Assembly (NCBI GenBank): GCA_903891095.1
Contig: CAITDI010000029.1
Location: 1 to 55,463, forward strand
DNA from: an uncultured bacterium
Lineage (GTDB): Bacteria > Planctomycetota > Phycisphaerae > Phycisphaerales > SM1A02
Reading direction: 5' to 3'
DNA: 55,463 nucleotides
Shown: positions 41,730 through 51,145 of the stretch, in pieces
Layout: every line of letters starts with the position of its first letter
How positions within the stretch are numbered: the first letter of the stretch is position 1
Notes under the pieces: generated by a model
Databases searched by the model: none
What the model was told of the DNA's origin: nothing
The model's input: only the letters and a program-made list of their open reading frames with translations
Translations under genes and position numbers: made by a program

Positions 41730-41733
<4 letters not shown>

Positions 41734-44700
41734 GAGTGCGCCCCAGTCGTGCCTTCGTGGTTGGCTTCGTGCTTGCCGTCGCCGTGCGCGCCGTGGCCTC
41801 CGGAAGCGCTCGCGCTCTCGATGGCCGGGTTGTTGACGCGCGCGAGGTACTTCACGCGCGGCTTGGTGTTGAGTTCCTCGAGCAGGTCGTAGCTGAGCTT
41901 GCTCTTCACAAGCTGCGCCACGCGGCTCTTGGGATTGTTGAGGTCGCCGAAGACGATCGCCTGCGTCGGGCAAGCCTGCTGGCAGGCCGTGACGACTGCG
42001 CCGTCCTCGATGGTCCATTCGCCCTTGCCGCCCTCGACGCCTCCCGCCTTGGCCCACGCGTTCTTCGCGCGGATCTTGGCGGCCTGGATGCGCTGCATGC
42101 AGAACGAGCACTTCTCCATCACGCCGCGCGAGCGGACGGTGACTTCGGGGTTGAACTGCATGCGCGACCAGCCCTCGGGCTTGTCGGTGATCGGATAGTG
42201 ATCCTCGGCCATCGACTTGTAGTAGTCGGGCTGCACCTTGAGGACGCCTTCTTCGCGCGACGGGTCGCGCCGCTGGTAGTCGAAGAAGTTGAAGCGGCGA
42301 ACCTTGTACGGGCAGTTGTTGCTGCAGTAGCGGGTGCCGATGCAGCGGTTGTAGATCATGACGTTCACGCCCTGCTCGTCATGCACGGTCGCGGCGACCG
42401 GGCAGACCTGCTCGCACGGCGCGTTCTCGCACTGCATGCAGGTGACGGGCTGGACAGCGAAGCTCTCGGGAGCGTCGACCGTTCCCTTGCGGAAGTAGCG
42501 GTCGATGCGGATCCAGTGCATCTCGCGACCGCGCGCCACCATCGCCTTGCCGACGATCGGGACGTTGTTCTCCGCCTGGCATGCGACGACGCACGCGCTG
42601 CAACCGGTGCAGGTCGAGAGGTCGATCGTCATCGCCCAGCGGTAGCGAGCGCCATCGAGGTTCGACTCTTCCCAGAGGGAGAGCTTGTGGGCGACGTGGC
42701 TCACGTGACGCGCGAAATCCGGGTGCTCCTTGTAGTGCGCGAGGCTGGCCTCGCGGACGAGGGTCGGAAGGCGATCGTTGATGCCCGTGGTCGGCACATC
42801 GGCGATCAGCGCATCGGCAGCGCCGTGATCCTGCGTGTGGGCAAACGCGTAGTTCGCGCCGGTCTTGGCCGCGGTGGCCTTGACCATGCCCATCGCCGAA
42901 GTCGAGCGCAGCGGATAGGCGTTGAAGCCAGCGCCTGCAGCGACGCGGCCCGCGACCTCGCCACGGCCGTAGCCGAGGGCGATCGAGGCGCAGTTCTCAG
43001 CATGACCCGGGAGGAGCCACGCGGCGGCTTCGATCGTCGCGGAACCCGCGGTGACCTTGATCACGTCGCCGGTCGCGATGCCGAGCTTGCGCGCGGTCGC
43101 GGGCGCCATGAGGAGCGCGTTGTCCCAGGTGAGCTTGGTCGCGGGATCGGGGAGTTCCTGCAGCCAGCCGAGGTTCGCGAAGCGACCGTCGGCGACCTTG
43201 GAATCGAAGAGGAACGCGACTTCCATCGCGGTGTCGACCGTCGCAGCAGCGGTGCTGCACAGGCCCGACACGCCGCCGCTGTTGACGGCCGGCGCAGGCG
43301 CTGCCTTGGCGGCGGTGCCTTCGACGAATCCGCGATCGAGGTTCTGGCGCCACCATGCTTCGAAGGCCACGCCCGAGAGTCCGCTGACCTTCATGTGCGC
43401 GCGACGCACGATCTCGAGGCTCGAGGTCTGGTCGTCACCGGTGAGGAGCGCGAGGAGCTCGAGCGCGTTGCGGCCACCCTGCTCCTTGTCGATCATCGGG
43501 AGGATGAGCGGCTGCTGCACGACGATCGAGCCGTCGATGGCGCGGCCATCGCTCCACGACTCGAGGCTGTGCGCGGCGGGAACATGCCACATGCAGGCCG
43601 AGGACTTGCTCGTCTCGTTCGCGTAGAACGAGAGGTGCACGACCTGCTTGGCCTTGGTGAGCTTGGCTGCGAAGTCGATGTCGGCCGGCGCGTCGTACGC
43701 GGGGTTGCCACCGAGCATGACGAGCGTCTCGACGCCGCCGGAGGCGAGCGTGTCGGCGAGCTGCTTGAGCTGCGCGCCACCGCCAACGGCCGGACCCGGA
43801 ACGTACGACACGGTGGTGCCGACGGAACCGAGCTTGTCGTTGATCGCGGCTGCGAGCGCGATGGTCGCGGGATCCTGCATCGGACCAGCGACGACGAGCG
43901 CGGAGCGACCCGCTGCCTTGAGGTCGGCGACGAGGTGCTTGACGACTTCGTTCGAGGCGAGTTCACCGGCCTTCGACGCGAGCGCGTCGCCGGCGGAGAT
44001 GCCGAGCTCCTTGGCGACATGCGCGGCAAGCGCGGCGATATCGCTGCGGCGCAGCGCGAGGCGCTGGTCGGCGCTCATGCCGGTCACGGTGACCGACGGC
44101 TCCGCAACGTACATGCGCGAGACGCTCTGCTTGGACGGATCGGACTCCTCGATGCGGCGGCCCTTGGCCCACGCACGCGAGTTCGCGACGCCCGTCGCCG
44201 GGCAGCCGAAGAGATCGGCGTCGAGCACGAGCACGACCTTGGCCGCATCGAGCATCGGCATCGCGATGAAGGAGCCGCCGAACGCAGCGTTCGACGCAGC
44301 GACCGCGGCATCCATGTTCATCGCGTTCCACGAGACCCAGCGGGCCTTCGGGTAGGTCGCGAGGAAGCGCGTCTTCATGTCGTCGAGCGTCGGGCTCATG
44401 CTGTCGTCGACGAGCACGGCGAGGCCGACGCCCGCGTTGGACTTGTACTGCTTGGCGAGGTCGCCGCACCAACCGGAGAACTCGGTCCAGGTGCTGGGCT
44501 TGCCGTTCTTGGTGAGCTCGCGGCTGCGATCGGGGTCGTAGAGCTCGAGCACGCGCGACTGGATCACGGCGTTCGAGCCAGCGGCGAACGGCAGCGACGG
44601 ATTGCCGTCGAGCTTGATCGGTCGGCCGTCGTAGCTCTTGGCGATGACGGGCCACGCGATGCCTGCGATCTCAACGCACGTCGCGTAGTCGACCGGCACG

Positions 44701-44993
44701 CCGGTCGTGCGGCCAGCCTGGCCCTGCGCGAACGGCACGATCTTGGTGTCGGGCCAGCGACGGCAAGCCGCGAGACCAGCCATCGCAAGGCCAGCGCCCA
44801 TCAGCTTGATGAAGTTGCGGCGGTCGTCGCCAGCGGCGAGTTCCTGCGCGTTCGGCCCGAACTCGCGAGCCATCAGCTCGCGGAACGCGGGGGTCTTCTC
44901 GAGGTCATCGGCGCTGCGCCAGTACTCGGCCTGGACGAAATTCGTGCCAGCCTCGTTGCTCCCGTTGTCGCAGCCAGTGCGTGATTCGTGCAT
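41730..44993 (-). CDS. actB: Alternative complex III subunit B (molybdopterin-oxidoreductase-like Fe-S protein, Tat signal)
   Basis: 1087 residues. Start at 44993 has AAGGGA upstream. An unusual internal Tat signal, [20 protein letters not shown] (Arg58-Arg59), follows a conserved [21 protein letters not shown] stretch in pieces. The large domain resembles molybdopterin oxidoreductases but ACIII ActB is known to have lost the cofactor. The C-terminal third has ferredoxin clusters: [59 protein letters not shown] and [10 protein letters not shown]. It takes electrons from quinol at ActC and passes them to ActA. The tail is His-rich ([14 protein letters not shown]). Confidence 0.96.
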
Positions 44994-45063
44994 CGTGGTC
45001 CCTTGCAATTGCCTTCAGATTCCAGGCTCGTGATTTGGGCTCGCCGCAGCGTGCCCCATGCGA

Positions 45064-45888: not shown

Positions 45889-46686
45889 TCAAGCGAGCGG
45901 CGTCGGCTCGATCCGGAAGAACCGCTTGGCGTTGGCGTAGAGCGCGGCGTTTGTGCTCGCAACATCCCTGCCCCAGAGGGCGGCGAGCGCCTCCGCGACG
46001 TGCACCACGAAGCGCGGGGCGTTGGGCCGCACGGTCCGGTGCGGTTCGGGGGTCAGGAACGGCGCGTCGGTCTCGACCATCACCCGGTCGATTGGCGCGA
46101 GCTGCGCCGCCTCCCGCGTCGCGGTGGCGTTTCGGAAGGTCACCACCCCCGTAAAGCTCACGAATGCCCCGAAATCAAGCAGCATCCGCATCTCGCGGGG
46201 CCCCGCGGTAAAGCAGTGGAACACGAACCGGTCGGCGGGGAGCCCGCTCTCCTTCAGGATGGGGATCAGTTCGTCGAAGGCCTCGCGGCAGTGGATGACG
46301 ACGGGCTTGTCGAGCCGAGGGTCCTCGACGCGCCATTGGGCCAGTTGGCCAAGTTGCTCGCGCAGGACGGCCAACTGCGTCTCCTGAGACGGCTCCTTGT
46401 AGTGCCGGTCGAGGCCGAGCTCCCCCCAGGCGACGCACTTCGGGTCGAGGCCGACCTCACGCATTTCCGCCCAGTTCGCAGGGCGATCGGAGTAGAGCGG
46501 GTGCACTCCTGCACTGCACCACAGATCCGCGTGCCGCCGCGCGAGGTCGAGCGCGCGAACCGCATCGGTCGTGGTGGTGGAGATCGTGATGGCGCCCGCG
46601 ACGCCCGCATGGCGTGCTGCAGCGAGGACTTCCGCGGTGCAATCTGCGTATTCGGGGAAAGTTAGATGGCAATGCGTGTCGATCAC
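45889..46686 (-). CDS. tatD: TatD-family DNase/deoxyribonuclease
   Basis: 265 residues. The protein opens IDTHCHLTFPEY, with the HxH metal site, so GTG at 46686 is the natural start (TACGCT six bases upstream, leaderless type); a longer frame from 46752 would run into the divergent tatC. AWGELGLDRHY gives the Glu ligand, PVVIHCREAFDEL and FHCFTAG the further His ligands, and VMVETDAPFLTP the catalytic Asp. A metal-dependent nuclease with 3'-5' exonuclease and repair roles; despite the name it is not needed for Tat export. Confidence 0.93.
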   Translation of the reverse strand: MIDTHCHLTFPEYADCTAEVLAAARHAGVAGAITISTTTTDAVRALDLARRHADLWCSAGVHPLYSDRPANWAEMREVGLDPKCVAWGELGLDRHYKEPSQETQLAVLREQLGQLAQWRVEDPRLDKPVVIHCREAFDELIPILKESGLPADRFVFHCFTAGPREMRMLLDFGAFVSFTGVVTFRNATATREAAQLAPIDRVMVETDAPFLTPEPHRTVRPNAPRFVVHVAEALAALWGRDVASTNAALYANAKRFFRIEPTPLA

Positions 46687-46692
46687 CCCGAC

Positions 46693-46698
46693 AGCGTA
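46693..46698 (-). promoter_or_regulatory. Putative -10 box (TACGCT), leaderless tatD
   Basis: TACGCT on the minus strand, six bases before the GTG at 46686; no ribosome-binding site. Supports the GTG start. Confidence 0.4.
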
Positions 46699-46730
46699 TC
46701 GGGCTGCTCCGATCGCGCCCGCGACTGCCG

Positions 46731-46736
46731 TAGACT
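46731..46736 (+). promoter_or_regulatory. Putative -10 box (TAGACT), leaderless tatC
   Basis: TAGACT nine bases before the tatC ATG; no Shine-Dalgarno between. Confidence 0.45.
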
Positions 46737-46745
46737 CGACCCCAA

Positions 46746-47954
46746 ATGCCACGACGCGATCAACCTGACGAAGCTGGCGGCTCGATGAGCTTCGGCGATC
46801 ACCTGGACGAACTGCGGAGTCGCATGTTCAAGGCGTTGGTGGTGCCCGCGCCGCTTGGCCTCGCGTTGTTTTTCGTCGCGCCGTACATGCGGGAAATCCT
46901 GATTTCACCGCTGTTTGCAGCGCTCCGCGCAAACGGACAACCCTGCCAGATCCAGGCGCTCTCCCCGGGCGAGACGATCACGACCGACATGAAGCTCGCA
47001 TTCGTGGGCGCGCTCACGATTTCGGCACCCTGGCTGCTCTACCAGCTCTGGAAGTTCATCGAACCCGGCCTCTACATGAAGGAGCGCCGCTACGTGCGCT
47101 TCCTGACCCCGCTTTCGGCGGTGCTGTCGGTGGGTGGCGTGCTGCTGTTCTATTGGATTCTGCTGCCGTTCGCGCTGATGTTCCTGGTCGGCTTCGGCAC
47201 GGCGCCGGCGCGCAAGACCGATGTGCCGCCGCCGATGACCGCCGCAACCGACCCGTCGGCCCCGCCGCCGCCGTTTGTGTTCCCGGTGCTCGAAGAGGAC
47301 CCCGTGTCCCCGCAACCGGGCCAGGTCTGGGTCGCCCCCAAGAACCAAGTGCTGCGAATCGCCGTCCCGTTGCAGAAATTCGCGCCGAACGCCATCGTCG
47401 AGTTCGCTGGCGATCTGTCGAACACCGTGTCCGCGGCTGCCTCTGGCCAGACGGTTTCGACCAGCCCGCAACTCTCCATCCTCGAGGTTCCGCTGACGGT
47501 CGTCGGCGGCATCTCGCAGGTCTACCGCCTGAGCGAGTACATCGACTTCACGCTGCTGCTGCTGGCGTCTTCGGTGCTCGCGTTCCAGATGCCCGCGCTG
47601 ATCCTGCTGCTGGGCTGGATCGGGTTCGTGAGCCCCTCGTTCCTGCGAAAGCACCGCCGCTGGGCGTACTTCATCCTCGTCATCATCGCGGCGCTGGTGG
47701 CCCCGCCGGACATCACCTCGATGTTCCTCATGCTCGCCCCGCTGCTGCTGCTGTACGAACTCGGCATCATCCTGCTGATCGTCGTTCCCGCGCACAAGGT
47801 GGCCGAGGGACGTGTGTTCTCGGTCGACCGTCAGGCCAAGAAGCCCGCACAGACCGCACAGACCAACCGGAGTTCCGACGATTCCGACCAAGACGACTAT
47901 GACGACTGGCACACGCGTCCCAACAAGGACGATGAGTCGGAGCGCGGGAGCTGA
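46746..47954 (+). CDS. tatC: Sec-independent translocase TatC with large periplasmic insertion
   Basis: 402 residues against about 250 usual. HLDELRSRMFKA (19-30), FIEPGLYMKERR and APPDITSMFLM are TatC core motifs that recognise twin-arginine signals. Between helices 3 and 4, where TatC normally has a loop of some 15-20 residues, residues about 152-262 form a Pro-rich linker (VPPPMTAATDPSAPPPP) and a strand-rich segment (QVLRIAVPLQKFAPNAIVEFAG). The C-terminal tail (360-402) is acidic. It would export ActB, whose Tat signal is encoded here. Divergent from tatD. Confidence 0.93.
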   Translation: MPRRDQPDEAGGSMSFGDHLDELRSRMFKALVVPAPLGLALFFVAPYMREILISPLFAALRANGQPCQIQALSPGETITTDMKLAFVGALTISAPWLLYQLWKFIEPGLYMKERRYVRFLTPLSAVLSVGGVLLFYWILLPFALMFLVGFGTAPARKTDVPPPMTAATDPSAPPPPFVFPVLEEDPVSPQPGQVWVAPKNQVLRIAVPLQKFAPNAIVEFAGDLSNTVSAAASGQTVSTSPQLSILEVPLTVVGGISQVYRLSEYIDFTLLLLASSVLAFQMPALILLLGWIGFVSPSFLRKHRRWAYFILVIIAALVAPPDITSMFLMLAPLLLLYELGIILLIVVPAHKVAEGRVFSVDRQAKKPAQTAQTNRSSDDSDQDDYDDWHTRPNKDDESERGS

Positions 47955-48061
47955 TCGTCGTGATCCGCCGCACGCGTGACCGAGTGCACAACCGAGGGAC
48001 GTCGAAGGACATGCGCGCACGCATTGCGTTCGCACGCATCGCCCGTCGACGGAGAAGAACG

Positions 48062-48595
48062 ATGAACCCCCTACGCCTTGTGGGTACCACACACCCAGGC
48101 GTCGGCGATATCGATGTGCGCATGATGGAGCGCGCAATCGAACTCGCACGGCGCGCCGCCCTCGAGGGCGAAGTCCCGATTGCCGCGGTCGTGTACCGCG
48201 GCGACGAGATCCTCGGCGAGGCCGCGAACAACCGCGAATCGAAGGCAGATCCCACGGGTCACGCCGAGATCGTCGCGATGCGCATCGCTGGCAAGAAGCT
48301 CGGGGAGTGGCGCCTCGAAGGCTGCTCGATGGCGGTCACGCTCGAACCCTGCCCGATGTGCGCAGGCGCGCTGGTGAACGCGCGGCTCGGCAAGCTCATC
48401 TACGGCGCGACCGATCCAAAGGCCGGCGCCTGCGAGACGCTCTACGCGATTCCAGGCGACGCGCGACTCAATCATCGCGTGCAGATGCACGGCGGCGTGC
48501 TCGCGCCGCGCTGCGTCGAACTGCTTCGTGCGTTCTTTCAGCAGCGCCGCGCGCAGCAGAAGGCCATGAAAGACGAAAGAAAGCGCAGCGCCTGA
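48062..48595 (+). CDS. tadA: tRNA-specific adenosine deaminase
   Basis: 177 residues from MNPLRLVGT; GGAG lies upstream. TGHAEIVAMR carries the zinc His and proton-shuttling Glu, and EPCPMCAGALVNAR the two zinc cysteines. It converts A34 to inosine in the tRNA-Arg(ACG) anticodon. The core is like E. coli TadA (about 167 residues) with a short N-terminal lead of 18 residues. The GTG of the next gene begins three bases after the stop, so the two are co-transcribed. Confidence 0.93.
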   Translation: MNPLRLVGTTHPGVGDIDVRMMERAIELARRAALEGEVPIAAVVYRGDEILGEAANNRESKADPTGHAEIVAMRIAGKKLGEWRLEGCSMAVTLEPCPMCAGALVNARLGKLIYGATDPKAGACETLYAIPGDARLNHRVQMHGGVLAPRCVELLRAFFQQRRAQQKAMKDERKRSA

Positions 48596-48597
48596 CC

Positions 48598-49239
48598 GTG
48601 ACGTCGCGACATCCAGCCAAGCTCGTGTGCGTGGACCTCGGTGGCGTGATCATCCGCATTCGCCGCTCGCTGGCCGAGACGCTGCATGCGGTCGGAGTGC
48701 CCGGGTATCTGCTCGAGGCGATTTCCACCGCTGAAATGCAGGCATTCCGCGCGACGACGTCCCAGCACCAGCGCGGCGAGCATGATTGGAATTCCTGGCT
48801 CGACGCCGCACACCGCGTGCTCGAGCGGCATGTCGACCGCGAGACGATCCAGCGCGCGCACGACGCGATCATCATCGGCGAGTATCCGGGCGTGGCACGC
48901 AGCCTCGGCGCGATCCGCCAGGCGGGCGCCATGACCGCGTGCCTCTCGAACACCAACGATCGGCACTGGGACGCACTGGTGGAGCTGCCTGCATTCAGCG
49001 AACTCGATCACCGGCATGCCTCGCACCTGCTCGGGCTTGAGAAGCCGAACGCCGAGATCTATCGCGCGTTCGAGAAGGCGACGGGCGTGTCTTCGGAGCA
49101 CATCCTCTTCCTCGACGACATCGAGGAGAACTGCGCCGCAGCGCGCGCGTGCGGATGGAACAGCGTGCGCATCGACCACGAGCGCGACACCGCGTCGCAG
49201 ATCATCGCCGCCGCGCGTGCGCACGGCGTGTCCTGCTGA
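48598..49239 (+). CDS. HAD-superfamily hydrolase (YihX-like subfamily IA)
   Basis: 213 residues from a GTG two bases after tadA. Motif I is CVDLGGVIIRI, the DLGxV form found in YihX-type haloacid dehalogenase phosphatases. Motif II is ACLSNTNDRHW, motif III the Lys in GLEKPNAEIYRAF, and motif IV LFLDDIEENCAAARA. Probably a small-molecule phosphatase; YihX itself acts on glucose-1-phosphate, but the substrate here is unknown. The second Asp of the classic DxD is Gly, which is normal for this subgroup. Confidence 0.88.
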   Translation: MTSRHPAKLVCVDLGGVIIRIRRSLAETLHAVGVPGYLLEAISTAEMQAFRATTSQHQRGEHDWNSWLDAAHRVLERHVDRETIQRAHDAIIIGEYPGVARSLGAIRQAGAMTACLSNTNDRHWDALVELPAFSELDHRHASHLLGLEKPNAEIYRAFEKATGVSSEHILFLDDIEENCAAARACGWNSVRIDHERDTASQIIAAARAHGVSC

Positions 49240-49326
49240 ACGCAAGCAAAGCGCGCGCGCATCACGCGCGATCACCACCTGCGCCCGCTCCACCAGAGGA
49301 AGCAGCCGCAGCTGCGACCGCTCAAG

Positions 49327-50682
49327 TTACGCGTCGCCCATGATTTCACGGCAAAGCACCGTGGCGAACGCGCCCTTGGGCAGATCGAACGCGAGGCGGA
49401 TGTAGCCGCCGTGCTCGTCGACGCCCGCGTCGACCGACCAGTCGCGCATCACGATGCGGTACGGCCGCCGTGCGCCCGTGCTGTCGAGCGCGGGCGGCGC
49501 AAACATCGATTCGTTCGCGCCAAAGCAGGCAAGCGCGCGCTGCTCGATCTCGCGAGGCGCGCCGGATGCCGCCACAAGCTCGGGCCCGAAGATCGGCCCC
49601 GTCGGCGAAATGTCGTGCGCCGCGCAACGCGCGCGCAGCGTGGCGAGCTCGTCGGCTGCGACATCCGCGGGGACCGCGAACTGCGAGTTGGTCCCCGCGA
49701 GAATCGCGACATCGCCCGGCAGAATCTCGCCAAAAGTGCCGCCCGACACGCGCGCGCCGAGCGCGGCGTTGTAGACGGCGCCCTGCAGCGCGCTCATCCA
49801 GAACGAGCGCGTGTGCGCAGGCACCGCGCGCACGGCGCCCGCCGCGTCTCGACCCTTGGCGAGCGCGCGCAGCGCGATGCGCTCGGCCTGGTCGTTGCGC
49901 CCCCACATGTCGTGCGCCGCCGCGAAGTCGCCGCGCTCGTACGCCTCGCGCACCTCCATCTGATGCGGCGGGAACGGCGCTCCGTGCGCGCCGAGCATCT
50001 CGTCGAGCAGCTGCTGCCATTCGCCGCGCGCGAAGTGTGCGCCGACGACATGGTTGTTCGCCCGGTAGCCAAAGCGCTGGTCGCCGAAATAGTCGGGAAT
50101 TCCAGTGGTTCCGAGCTCCTCCATGCGGCGCTTGACGGTGCGCACCTGCATGGGATCGACGCCGCGGATGCGGATCGAGAACCGGTTGCCCTTGAGGTGC
50201 CCACGGCGCAGCTTGTTGGTGTGGCGCTTGGCCCACAGCACGCCGAGTCGGTCGTGCTTGAGCTCGCCGACGGGCCGGTCGACGGGCATGTGCACCGACA
50301 CCGCCTGTTGCGTGACGGCGACGCGATCCTTCATGCCCGCGAAGCCGATTGCGTTCTCCTCCACGTGGAAATGCCTGCAGATCACCGCGAGCATCTCGGT
50401 GTGCGGCATGTTGGTCTTCTGCACGCCGAGGTAGATGTGCTCGCCTTCGCCGACAGGGTCGTACGCGGGCAGCTCCTCGACGATGAAGTCCTCTGGCCGC
50501 TCCTTGAGCCGACCGCCGATGCCTGGCACCGTCGACGCGCGCGGACCAGGCCGCGGATCGACGCGCTGGTGCGGCGGCGCGAGCGTGACCCAGTTTTCGG
50601 GCGCAAGCATGCCGACCGCGGGATGCATCGCGAGCGGCGCGTTGTGCGTGCGGAGGCCTTCCGACGGCTCGTCAGTCGTCAT
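49327..50682 (-). CDS. truD: tRNA pseudouridine(13) synthase
   Basis: 451 residues from MTTDEPSEG. IGFAGMKDRVAVTQQ contains the catalytic Asp and its surrounding GxKDxxAxT motif, and GIPDYFGDQRFG is the second family motif. It makes pseudouridine at position 13 of tRNA-Glu. About 100 residues longer than E. coli TruD, mainly through a long N-terminal lead (about 1-50) and the inserted TruD domain. GAGG six bases upstream favours 50682 over the ATG at 50688. The start lies inside the 3' end of the preceding gene (11-base overlap). Confidence 0.93.
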   Translation of the reverse strand: MTTDEPSEGLRTHNAPLAMHPAVGMLAPENWVTLAPPHQRVDPRPGPRASTVPGIGGRLKERPEDFIVEELPAYDPVGEGEHIYLGVQKTNMPHTEMLAVICRHFHVEENAIGFAGMKDRVAVTQQAVSVHMPVDRPVGELKHDRLGVLWAKRHTNKLRRGHLKGNRFSIRIRGVDPMQVRTVKRRMEELGTTGIPDYFGDQRFGYRANNHVVGAHFARGEWQQLLDEMLGAHGAPFPPHQMEVREAYERGDFAAAHDMWGRNDQAERIALRALAKGRDAAGAVRAVPAHTRSFWMSALQGAVYNAALGARVSGGTFGEILPGDVAILAGTNSQFAVPADVAADELATLRARCAAHDISPTGPIFGPELVAASGAPREIEQRALACFGANESMFAPPALDSTGARRPYRIVMRDWSVDAGVDEHGGYIRLAFDLPKGAFATVLCREIMGDA

Positions 50683-51145
50683 CGTCATCCTCGCCGGCCT
50701 CGATCGGAGGCTCGACTTCGGGGCGGTCCTCGGCGGCCTCGCGGATGACATCCTCGGCGACCTCGATCGGCGTGCGGTGCGCGACGCCGAGGGCGATCGC
50801 GTCGCTTGGGCGCGCGTCGACCTCGAGCAGCTCGCCGCCCTGCCGGATCACCAGGCTCGCGTGGTACGTGCCCGAGTCAAGCCGATGGATGAGGATGCGC
50901 TCGAGCGAACCTCCGAGCGCGCGGAGCACGCTGTCGAGAAGTTCGTGCGTCTGCGGGCGCGGCGGCGCCTCGCCGCGCAGGCGGCGCTCGATGGCCAGCG
51001 CCTCGGTGGTGCCGATCTTGATGGCGAAGCTGCGCGGTCCGTCCTTCTCGGTGAGCGTGATGAACTGCTCGGCGCTCGAGTCGAGGATCAGCACGCGGGA
51101 GAGTTCCATCGAGACGAACATGGGCTCGCGAGGATAGCGCGACAT
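50672..51145 (-). CDS. Bifunctional nuclease (BFN/DUF151) domain protein
   Basis: 157 residues. The core FAIKIGTTEALAIERRLRGE and GELLEVDARPSDAIALGVAHRTPI are diagnostic of the BFN/DUF151 family, linked to DNase and RNase activity in plants and found widely in bacteria with unclear function. The tail ends in a run of acidic residues (GEDDDDD) whose codons also hold the truD ribosome-binding site and start codon, so truD translation is coupled. No clear -10 box upstream. Confidence 0.88.
   Translation of the reverse strand: MSRYPREPMFVSMELSRVLILDSSAEQFITLTEKDGPRSFAIKIGTTEALAIERRLRGEAPPRPQTHELLDSVLRALGGSLERILIHRLDSGTYHASLVIRQGGELLEVDARPSDAIALGVAHRTPIEVAEDVIREAAEDRPEVEPPIEAGEDDDDD

Follow-up and report, generated by a model that had tools for sequence, protein, structure and literature searches.

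The TatC protein encoded in the window (the whole stretch of 55,463 nucleotides that was analysed) contains a net insertion of about 100 residues in the P2 loop, between TM3 and TM4. The insert is confirmed as a real, clade-restricted and conserved variant of TatC, a family in which long P2 loops are already known. Judged from the sequences, the distribution of the insert is best explained by one acquisition, or a few at most, among the ancestors of a single planctomycete class, and we propose that the insert may act as a clade-specific cap which staples the TatC trimer at the site of P2 self-contact, a proposal that we regard as evenly balanced between right and wrong. Two matters still debated for the mechanism of Tat transport are what keeps TatC trimers together and whether these trimers open at any stage.

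The identity of the reading frame as TatC and the position of the insert are near certain. The Pfam TatC family PF00902 matches the frame with an E-value of 2.5e-51 and 174.9 bits (curated cut-off 25.1), and the NCBIfam family TIGR00945 gives 156.9 (curated cut-off 132.7). An AlphaFold2 model built from 56 alignment rows (mean pLDDT 84) shows the TatC fold in the membrane core, with a Z-score of 23.2 and an rmsd of 2.4 over 222 residues against 4b4a, and Z-scores of 16.6–23.2 against the seven TatC chains listed. It is the sole TatC detected in this genome (3.6 Mb in 131 contigs, 98.6% complete). The gene may in fact begin at 46785 rather than at 46746, a later start being suggested because the methionine encoded there, M14, is nearly invariant among relatives. 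As called, the starts of tatC (plus strand, 46746) and tatD (minus strand, 46752) overlap by 7 bases (46746–46752). One TatA-type match was obtained in the genome, which by eye resembles TatA, and a second, TatB-like match was not found there; among 61 genomes of the same order, 53 have one TatA-type match and four have two, while in four none was found.

Within the TatC profile the match to residues 18–151 covers positions 1–129, and in the genome profile search the second half (positions 130–208) begins at nucleotide 47505, that is at residue 254, so that the gap falls between TM3 and TM4. According to the established N-in topology of TatC this P2 loop is periplasmic. Measured between common anchors, the span from TM3 to TM4 is 114 residues here and 9–26 residues in insert-free TatCs, a comparison that excludes L102, L115 and L155, where the locus is truncated. 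The break in the profile and the measured span thus agree with the original prediction, made from the sequence alone, of a large insertion at residues 152–262 (47199–47531). The insert enters the protein just ahead of G255, which aligns with chain residue 144 of 9dzz/9r91, corresponding to G144 of E. coli TatC. It is not a product of chance or of a frame error, because the reading frames are uninterrupted, relatives from the same genus match nearly the whole TatC at 59–76% identity, and the hairpin is conserved well outside the genus. The parts of the protein are listed in Table 1.

Table 1. Coordinates of the tatC features in the window and of the small tail-fibre-like gene at a separate locus (L264)
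Feature	Position	Strand	Remarks
tatC reading frame	46746–47954	+	402 residues; start uncertain
TM1 to TM3 core, residues 14–151	46785–47198	+	Pfam match 18–151; helices, block pLDDT mostly >90
Insert part 1, Pro-rich arm, residues 152–176	47199–47273	+	variable in length and sequence; 8–60% identity (14 relatives); block pLDDT 69–86
Insert part 2, conserved beta-hairpin, residues 177–208	47274–47369	+	34–91% identity (14 relatives); predicted strands 194–197 and 202–208
Insert part 3, variable spacer, residues 209–240	47370–47465	+	low-confidence helix; 0–47% identity (14 relatives); block pLDDT 57–68
Insert part 4, third strand (predicted, 243–249) and link into TM4	47466–47531	+	23–86% identity (14 relatives); block pLDDT 89
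R261, aligned to essential D150 of E. coli TatC	47526–47528	+
TM4 to TM6, residues 263–345	47532–47780	+	profile match and model
C-terminal tail, residues 346–402	47781–47951	+	predicted unstructured after about 360; block pLDDT 51–59 from 361
Small tail-fibre-like protein of genome G430	L264:9226–9474	+	nearby matches: tape-measure, lectin-like, holin (weak)

The predicted structure bears out the expectation of a Pro-rich arm and a strand-rich core, the core consisting of a hairpin and a third strand. AlphaFold2 assigns block pLDDT values of 86–95 to residues 171–210, and the insert modelled alone yields the same three strands; full disorder, which had been named as an outcome that would speak against the insert, is therefore not what is predicted for the hairpin. 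Across a 42-row alignment G192 never changes, and P186 and W195 hardly do. Across 14 relatives the TM1–3 core retains 43–83% identity to this TatC; the hairpin is slightly less conserved than that core in 12 of them and more conserved in two, and conservation of the third strand falls below that of the membrane core in most. The arm and the spacer drift, and the spacer is short or missing in many of the aligned relatives. Pfam gave no match for this insert and NCBIfam one weak match (E 0.3). Searches with 42 insert rows returned weak matches to three Pfam families (best E 0.0051) and to 14 PHROG families (best E 0.021), and DUF7360 was weakly matched in five of these rows (best E 0.006). The insert sequence of this TatC, searched singly against the PDB, matched only oxalate decarboxylases and their relatives at an E-value of 1.7, which were taken as chance matches.

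For the survey two alignments were used: A1, consisting of this TatC, 47 of 55 insert-bearing rows and 8 of 23 others, and A2, the insert profile, consisting of this TatC and 41 of the 55 inserts, with near-duplicates and some divergent rows left out. TatC matches were obtained in 145 of 151 genomes of the order, and every one of the 42 order genomes in which the loop was measured has the insert, with 79–124 residues between the anchors. In one further order genome, G278, TatC is split between contigs; a second A2 match in that genome was rejected as a separate gene since TatC is broken there across two contig ends. A2 matches 159 of 298 genomes of the class at E ≤0.01, at least five of these matches lying outside TatC and a minority of the match places being inspected one by one. 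A match in G090 (E 0.0086) lies in a non-TatC frame and was taken as chance. Among class genomes outside the order, the short-loop TatCs that were fetched (n=16) have loops of 13–26 residues.

In a draw of 294 genomes from the phylum, A2 matched 14 of the 15 members of the order and one unrelated weak place; the fifteenth member, G242, has a 96-residue loop which A2 missed. Because some divergent rows had been left out of it, A2 misses divergent inserts such as those of G057 and G242, and loops outside the class were for this reason measured directly. At 49 loci measured there, the P2 span is 9–17 residues. A further 27 genomes gave a TatC match in two pieces; in every one of them the interruption falls within the first loop, near profile position 40 of 208, and the profile continues unbroken through the second. 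Thus none of 76 genomes checked in the rest of the phylum (49 measured loci and 27 split matches) has a P2 insert. The survey of TatC lengths across Planctomycetota that had been suggested therefore shows the insert to be shared well beyond a single strain and, among the genomes checked, limited to one class, so that the planctomycete cell plan does not serve as a phylum-wide explanation for it.

Of 80 named loci, 55 have the insert, 23 have a canonical loop and two are cut at contig ends. Twenty-four of the 55 are titled Phycisphaerales, Phycisphaeraceae or Phycisphaerae, the others only Planctomycetota, and a few seem mislabelled; from the names of many relatives we infer that the insert-bearing class is Phycisphaerae, the assignment of genomes to order, class and phylum being that of the search tool. 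Five loci (L066, L069, L071, L075 and L090) are titled Singulisphaera or Cyanobacteria, although their TatC and its neighbours resemble those of Phycisphaerales, and they possibly derive from mislabelled bins.

In many other planctomycete families, and in one family within the class, it is the first loop (P1, between TM1 and TM2) that is enlarged, together with an ordinary second loop; the long-P1 loci are L022, L023, L026, L027, L169, L171, L173, L175, L211, L214–L217, L221–L224 and L268–L291. The P1 measure misses very long first-loop insertions (L210, L212, L213 and L218–L220 were scored as insert-free with Pfam spans of 984–1119 bases), and the P1 count of 21 in 192 and the eight changes on the tree are for that reason unreliable and were not used. 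The P2 measure relies on anchors that differ from those of P1 and was checked separately.

For the tree, 220 TatC reading frames (some genomes being repeated) were reduced to 192 by removing partial cores (more than 40 gapped columns) and identical cores, and to 164 by thinning at 92% identity. In the tree built from the core alone, all 90 insert-bearing sequences fall into one group of 98 with a local support of 0.932 (0.978 after rerooting). Three changes account for the insert on this tree, compared with a mean of 54 and a minimum of 46 for shuffled labels. The eight insert-free members sit at two places inside the group, which implies that some TatCs of this lineage manage without the insert. 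A single gain followed by two losses would explain this topology as well as a history of up to three gains.

That the periplasmic loops of TatC vary in length is in print, P1 reaching 248 residues in Pirellula staleyi and P2 183 residues in Myxococcus xanthus (PMC3712464), and within the open-access PMC literature searched we found no description of the present insert. The closest precedent is the TatC of M. xanthus (PDB 9E03, 9E0S), which likewise has a large periplasmic insert between TM3 and TM4; this insert is reported to be ordered, to form a homotrimer in the crystal and in the TatBC complex, and to augment the contacts between TatC subunits (PMC13323110). The 9E03 chain is matched by the TatC profile at residues 1–134 and again from residue 298, around its own insert, leaving about 163 residues between the matched halves compared with about 111 here. 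No match between the two inserts was obtained in our searches: A2 against all PDB sequences at E ≤10 returned only a nanobody (E 1.2), and neither 9E03 nor 9E0S was among the Foldseek matches listed for the insert-only model against the PDB at E ≤10, although the lack of such a match does not prove that the folds differ. The TatC of Nitratifractor salsuginis (PDB 9E02) also has a large periplasmic insert; it lies in a different loop, however, is disordered and is described by the authors as unrelated to that of M. xanthus (PMC13323110). Finally, the 248-residue loop of the planctomycete P. staleyi, published since 2012 (PMC3712464), expands the first loop and not the second, and the long-P1 loci measured by us have ordinary second loops.

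In E. coli, cysteines at the P2 positions G144C and S148C give TatC–TatC cross-links, indicating that neighbouring P2 loops touch, and a cross-linker at D150 of the same loop forms adducts with both TatA and TatB (PMC3712464), which agrees with the earlier placement of the insert close to the contacts with TatA and TatB. Both V145E and D150Y, substitutions in P2, have dominant-negative effects and lead to complexes below full size (PMC3712464, PMC5102672). The G144C contact persists under dominant-negative P2 substitutions (PMC5102672), and P2 contact and full assembly are therefore separable.

The trimer cap proposed above would work as follows. The P2 loop would have acquired a beta module, made of the hairpin and the third strand with a variable spacer between them, which is carried on the Pro-rich arm. 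Because it is precisely the P2 loop through which neighbouring TatC subunits touch at the periplasmic face, we infer that the inserts of the three subunits come together at the three-fold axis, trimerise there and form a cap that stabilises the TatC trimer, while transport would continue around the periphery, as has been argued for the solved complexes. Such a cap is the most economical reading given the trimeric precedent of M. xanthus and the P2 self-contacts of E. coli, and the single TatA-type partner makes a need for extra stability plausible without proving anything. Against it, the disorder of the N. salsuginis insert means that long loops need not be structured, E. coli, from which the supporting biochemistry comes, has a TatB, the M. 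xanthus insert is matched neither by sequence nor by Foldseek, P2 contact and full assembly are separable, the third strand is kept less well than the membrane core, and the tree group includes eight insert-free TatCs. If the cap proved correct, the self-contact loop would have been reinforced more than once, here by a second insert unrelated in sequence to the first.

The same conserved hairpin between drifting linkers, on an arm rich in proline, would also suit a docking module. The hairpin would then be the binding face for a separate periplasmic partner, such as an envelope anchor, a folding or cofactor-loading factor or a signal peptidase, which the insert would bring to the export site. 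We consider this unlikely, as no known binding domain was matched and no obvious partner gene travels along with tatC. In a search restricted to the genes of this window, only homologues of TadA (30), TruD (20), TatD (16) and HAD-like proteins (16) recur within 4 kb of tatC among the 55 insert-bearing named loci, several of which are short. These recurring neighbours span 45889–50751 in the window. For the notion that the insert recognises the envelope, as had been put forward, we obtained no positive evidence. Growth of a periplasmic loop may, on the other hand, simply be cheap, with the hairpin as a self-stabilising passenger. The large first-loop insertions in many other planctomycete families, the free drift of arm and spacer and the insert-free members of the tree group are all in keeping with this, and yet the hairpin retains its identity at levels that approach those of the membrane core, so that we attach little probability to mere tolerance of the insert.

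A contribution to gating, in which the insert touches the substrate domain as it exits, or brings in TatA from the periplasmic side, and so tunes specificity or timing, appears quite improbable to us as well. It would be consistent with the D150 adducts, and also with the residue at the D150-aligned position, which is arginine in 61 of 108 TatCs with the insert and in 11 of 88 without it (counted after dropping rows with loops shorter than 9, rows with more than 60 gaps and identical rows). This position is, however, variable even without the insert, and a compensatory exchange of D150 for arginine was dropped as a main argument because of this wide variation. In the solved complexes, moreover, substrates associate solely through their signal peptides, which counts against gating and likewise weakens the earlier suggestion that the insert recognises substrates, the P2 loop being periplasmic and the twin-arginine site lying on the cytoplasmic face of TatC.

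As to where the module came from, a search with the insert profile brought up, besides TatC, a small protein (about 81 residues) encoded by five class genomes with an insert-free TatC (L156–L160), with E-values of 4.7e-9 in G430 and 6.1e-6 to 1.6e-5 in the other four. When the insert was aligned with the alignment of these small proteins (A3) by hhalign, a probability of 96.6% was obtained over 39 columns at 31% identity. The aligned columns take in the hairpin and, beyond the spacer, the third strand as well, and they correspond to A3 positions 40–78, the second half only; as a control, the TM1–3 core alignment of TatC gave nothing except the shared 8-residue flank (11.8%). The N-terminal half of this protein, for which the TatC insert has no counterpart, resembles the starts of phage tail-fibre and related proteins (seven records, best E 4e-5, and eight viral contigs). 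The G430 copy is situated about 7 kb away from a match to a tape-measure protein (E 3.8e-9). The gene immediately following this copy has a lectin-like match in Pfam (E 5.4e-19), and a weak match to a holin (E 0.0026) comes about 5.5 kb after the copy, so that this cluster would represent a prophage or tail-like element; among the five genomes, this context comes from G430 alone. Taken together, the core of the insert is related in sequence to one half of a phage-tail-type protein.

The structural comparisons remain below significance. A viral structure library, which returns viral proteins only, ranks a tail fibre protein first (E 0.05, not significant), five of the next nine matches being collagen-repeat proteins; a short match has a probability of 0.99 and an rmsd of 1.1 over 32 columns (E 0.19, not significant). 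The PDB structural list is led by unrelated pterin dehydratases (E 1.4), with TSP4 entries in the top five. All three rows listed by VIA-align for the insert model are TSP4, at Z-scores of 2.2–2.9 that lie in the noise range, the best being the anchor of TSP4 from phage CBA120 (PDB 7REJ; Z 2.9, 45 residues, rmsd 3.8). This anchor domain is described as a trimeric beta-helix (PMC8825819); we do not claim that the insert belongs to it.

In the phage loci, phage records and viral contigs searched, no phage protein carrying the module was found by sequence. The insert profile found nothing in four phage loci with relatives of the small protein's first half, 17 pattern matches of the L067 insert in viral contigs yielded none that was confirmed, and 48 residues of that insert gave one match in phage records (E 0.09). 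The viral contig L261, which matched the motif half of the 81-residue protein, was rejected as the insert profile did not confirm it. Support for the viral link consequently comes from the tail-type protein of planctomycetes and from the sub-threshold structural matches. Since few residues are involved, convergence on a common hairpin is possible. An ancestor of these planctomycetes might have received, in P2 of its TatC, a beta module of the phage tail-fibre kind that is able to trimerise and would now clamp the Tat core complex at its three-fold axis from the periplasmic side. This seems to us rather unlikely; should such descent be confirmed, it would add another viral structural module reused in cell machinery.

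A pairing of ActB with the insert-bearing TatC is not claimed, ActB being present within 4 kb at two and ActA at four of the 55 insert-bearing loci, many of which are short. The ActB-like reading frame of this window (41730–45008, minus strand) contains the motif RRNFIK followed by a hydrophobic stretch that ends in LAAC, which by eye we take to be a twin-arginine signal of the lipoprotein type. The ActB-like protein is therefore likely a Tat substrate, encoded two genes away from tatC.
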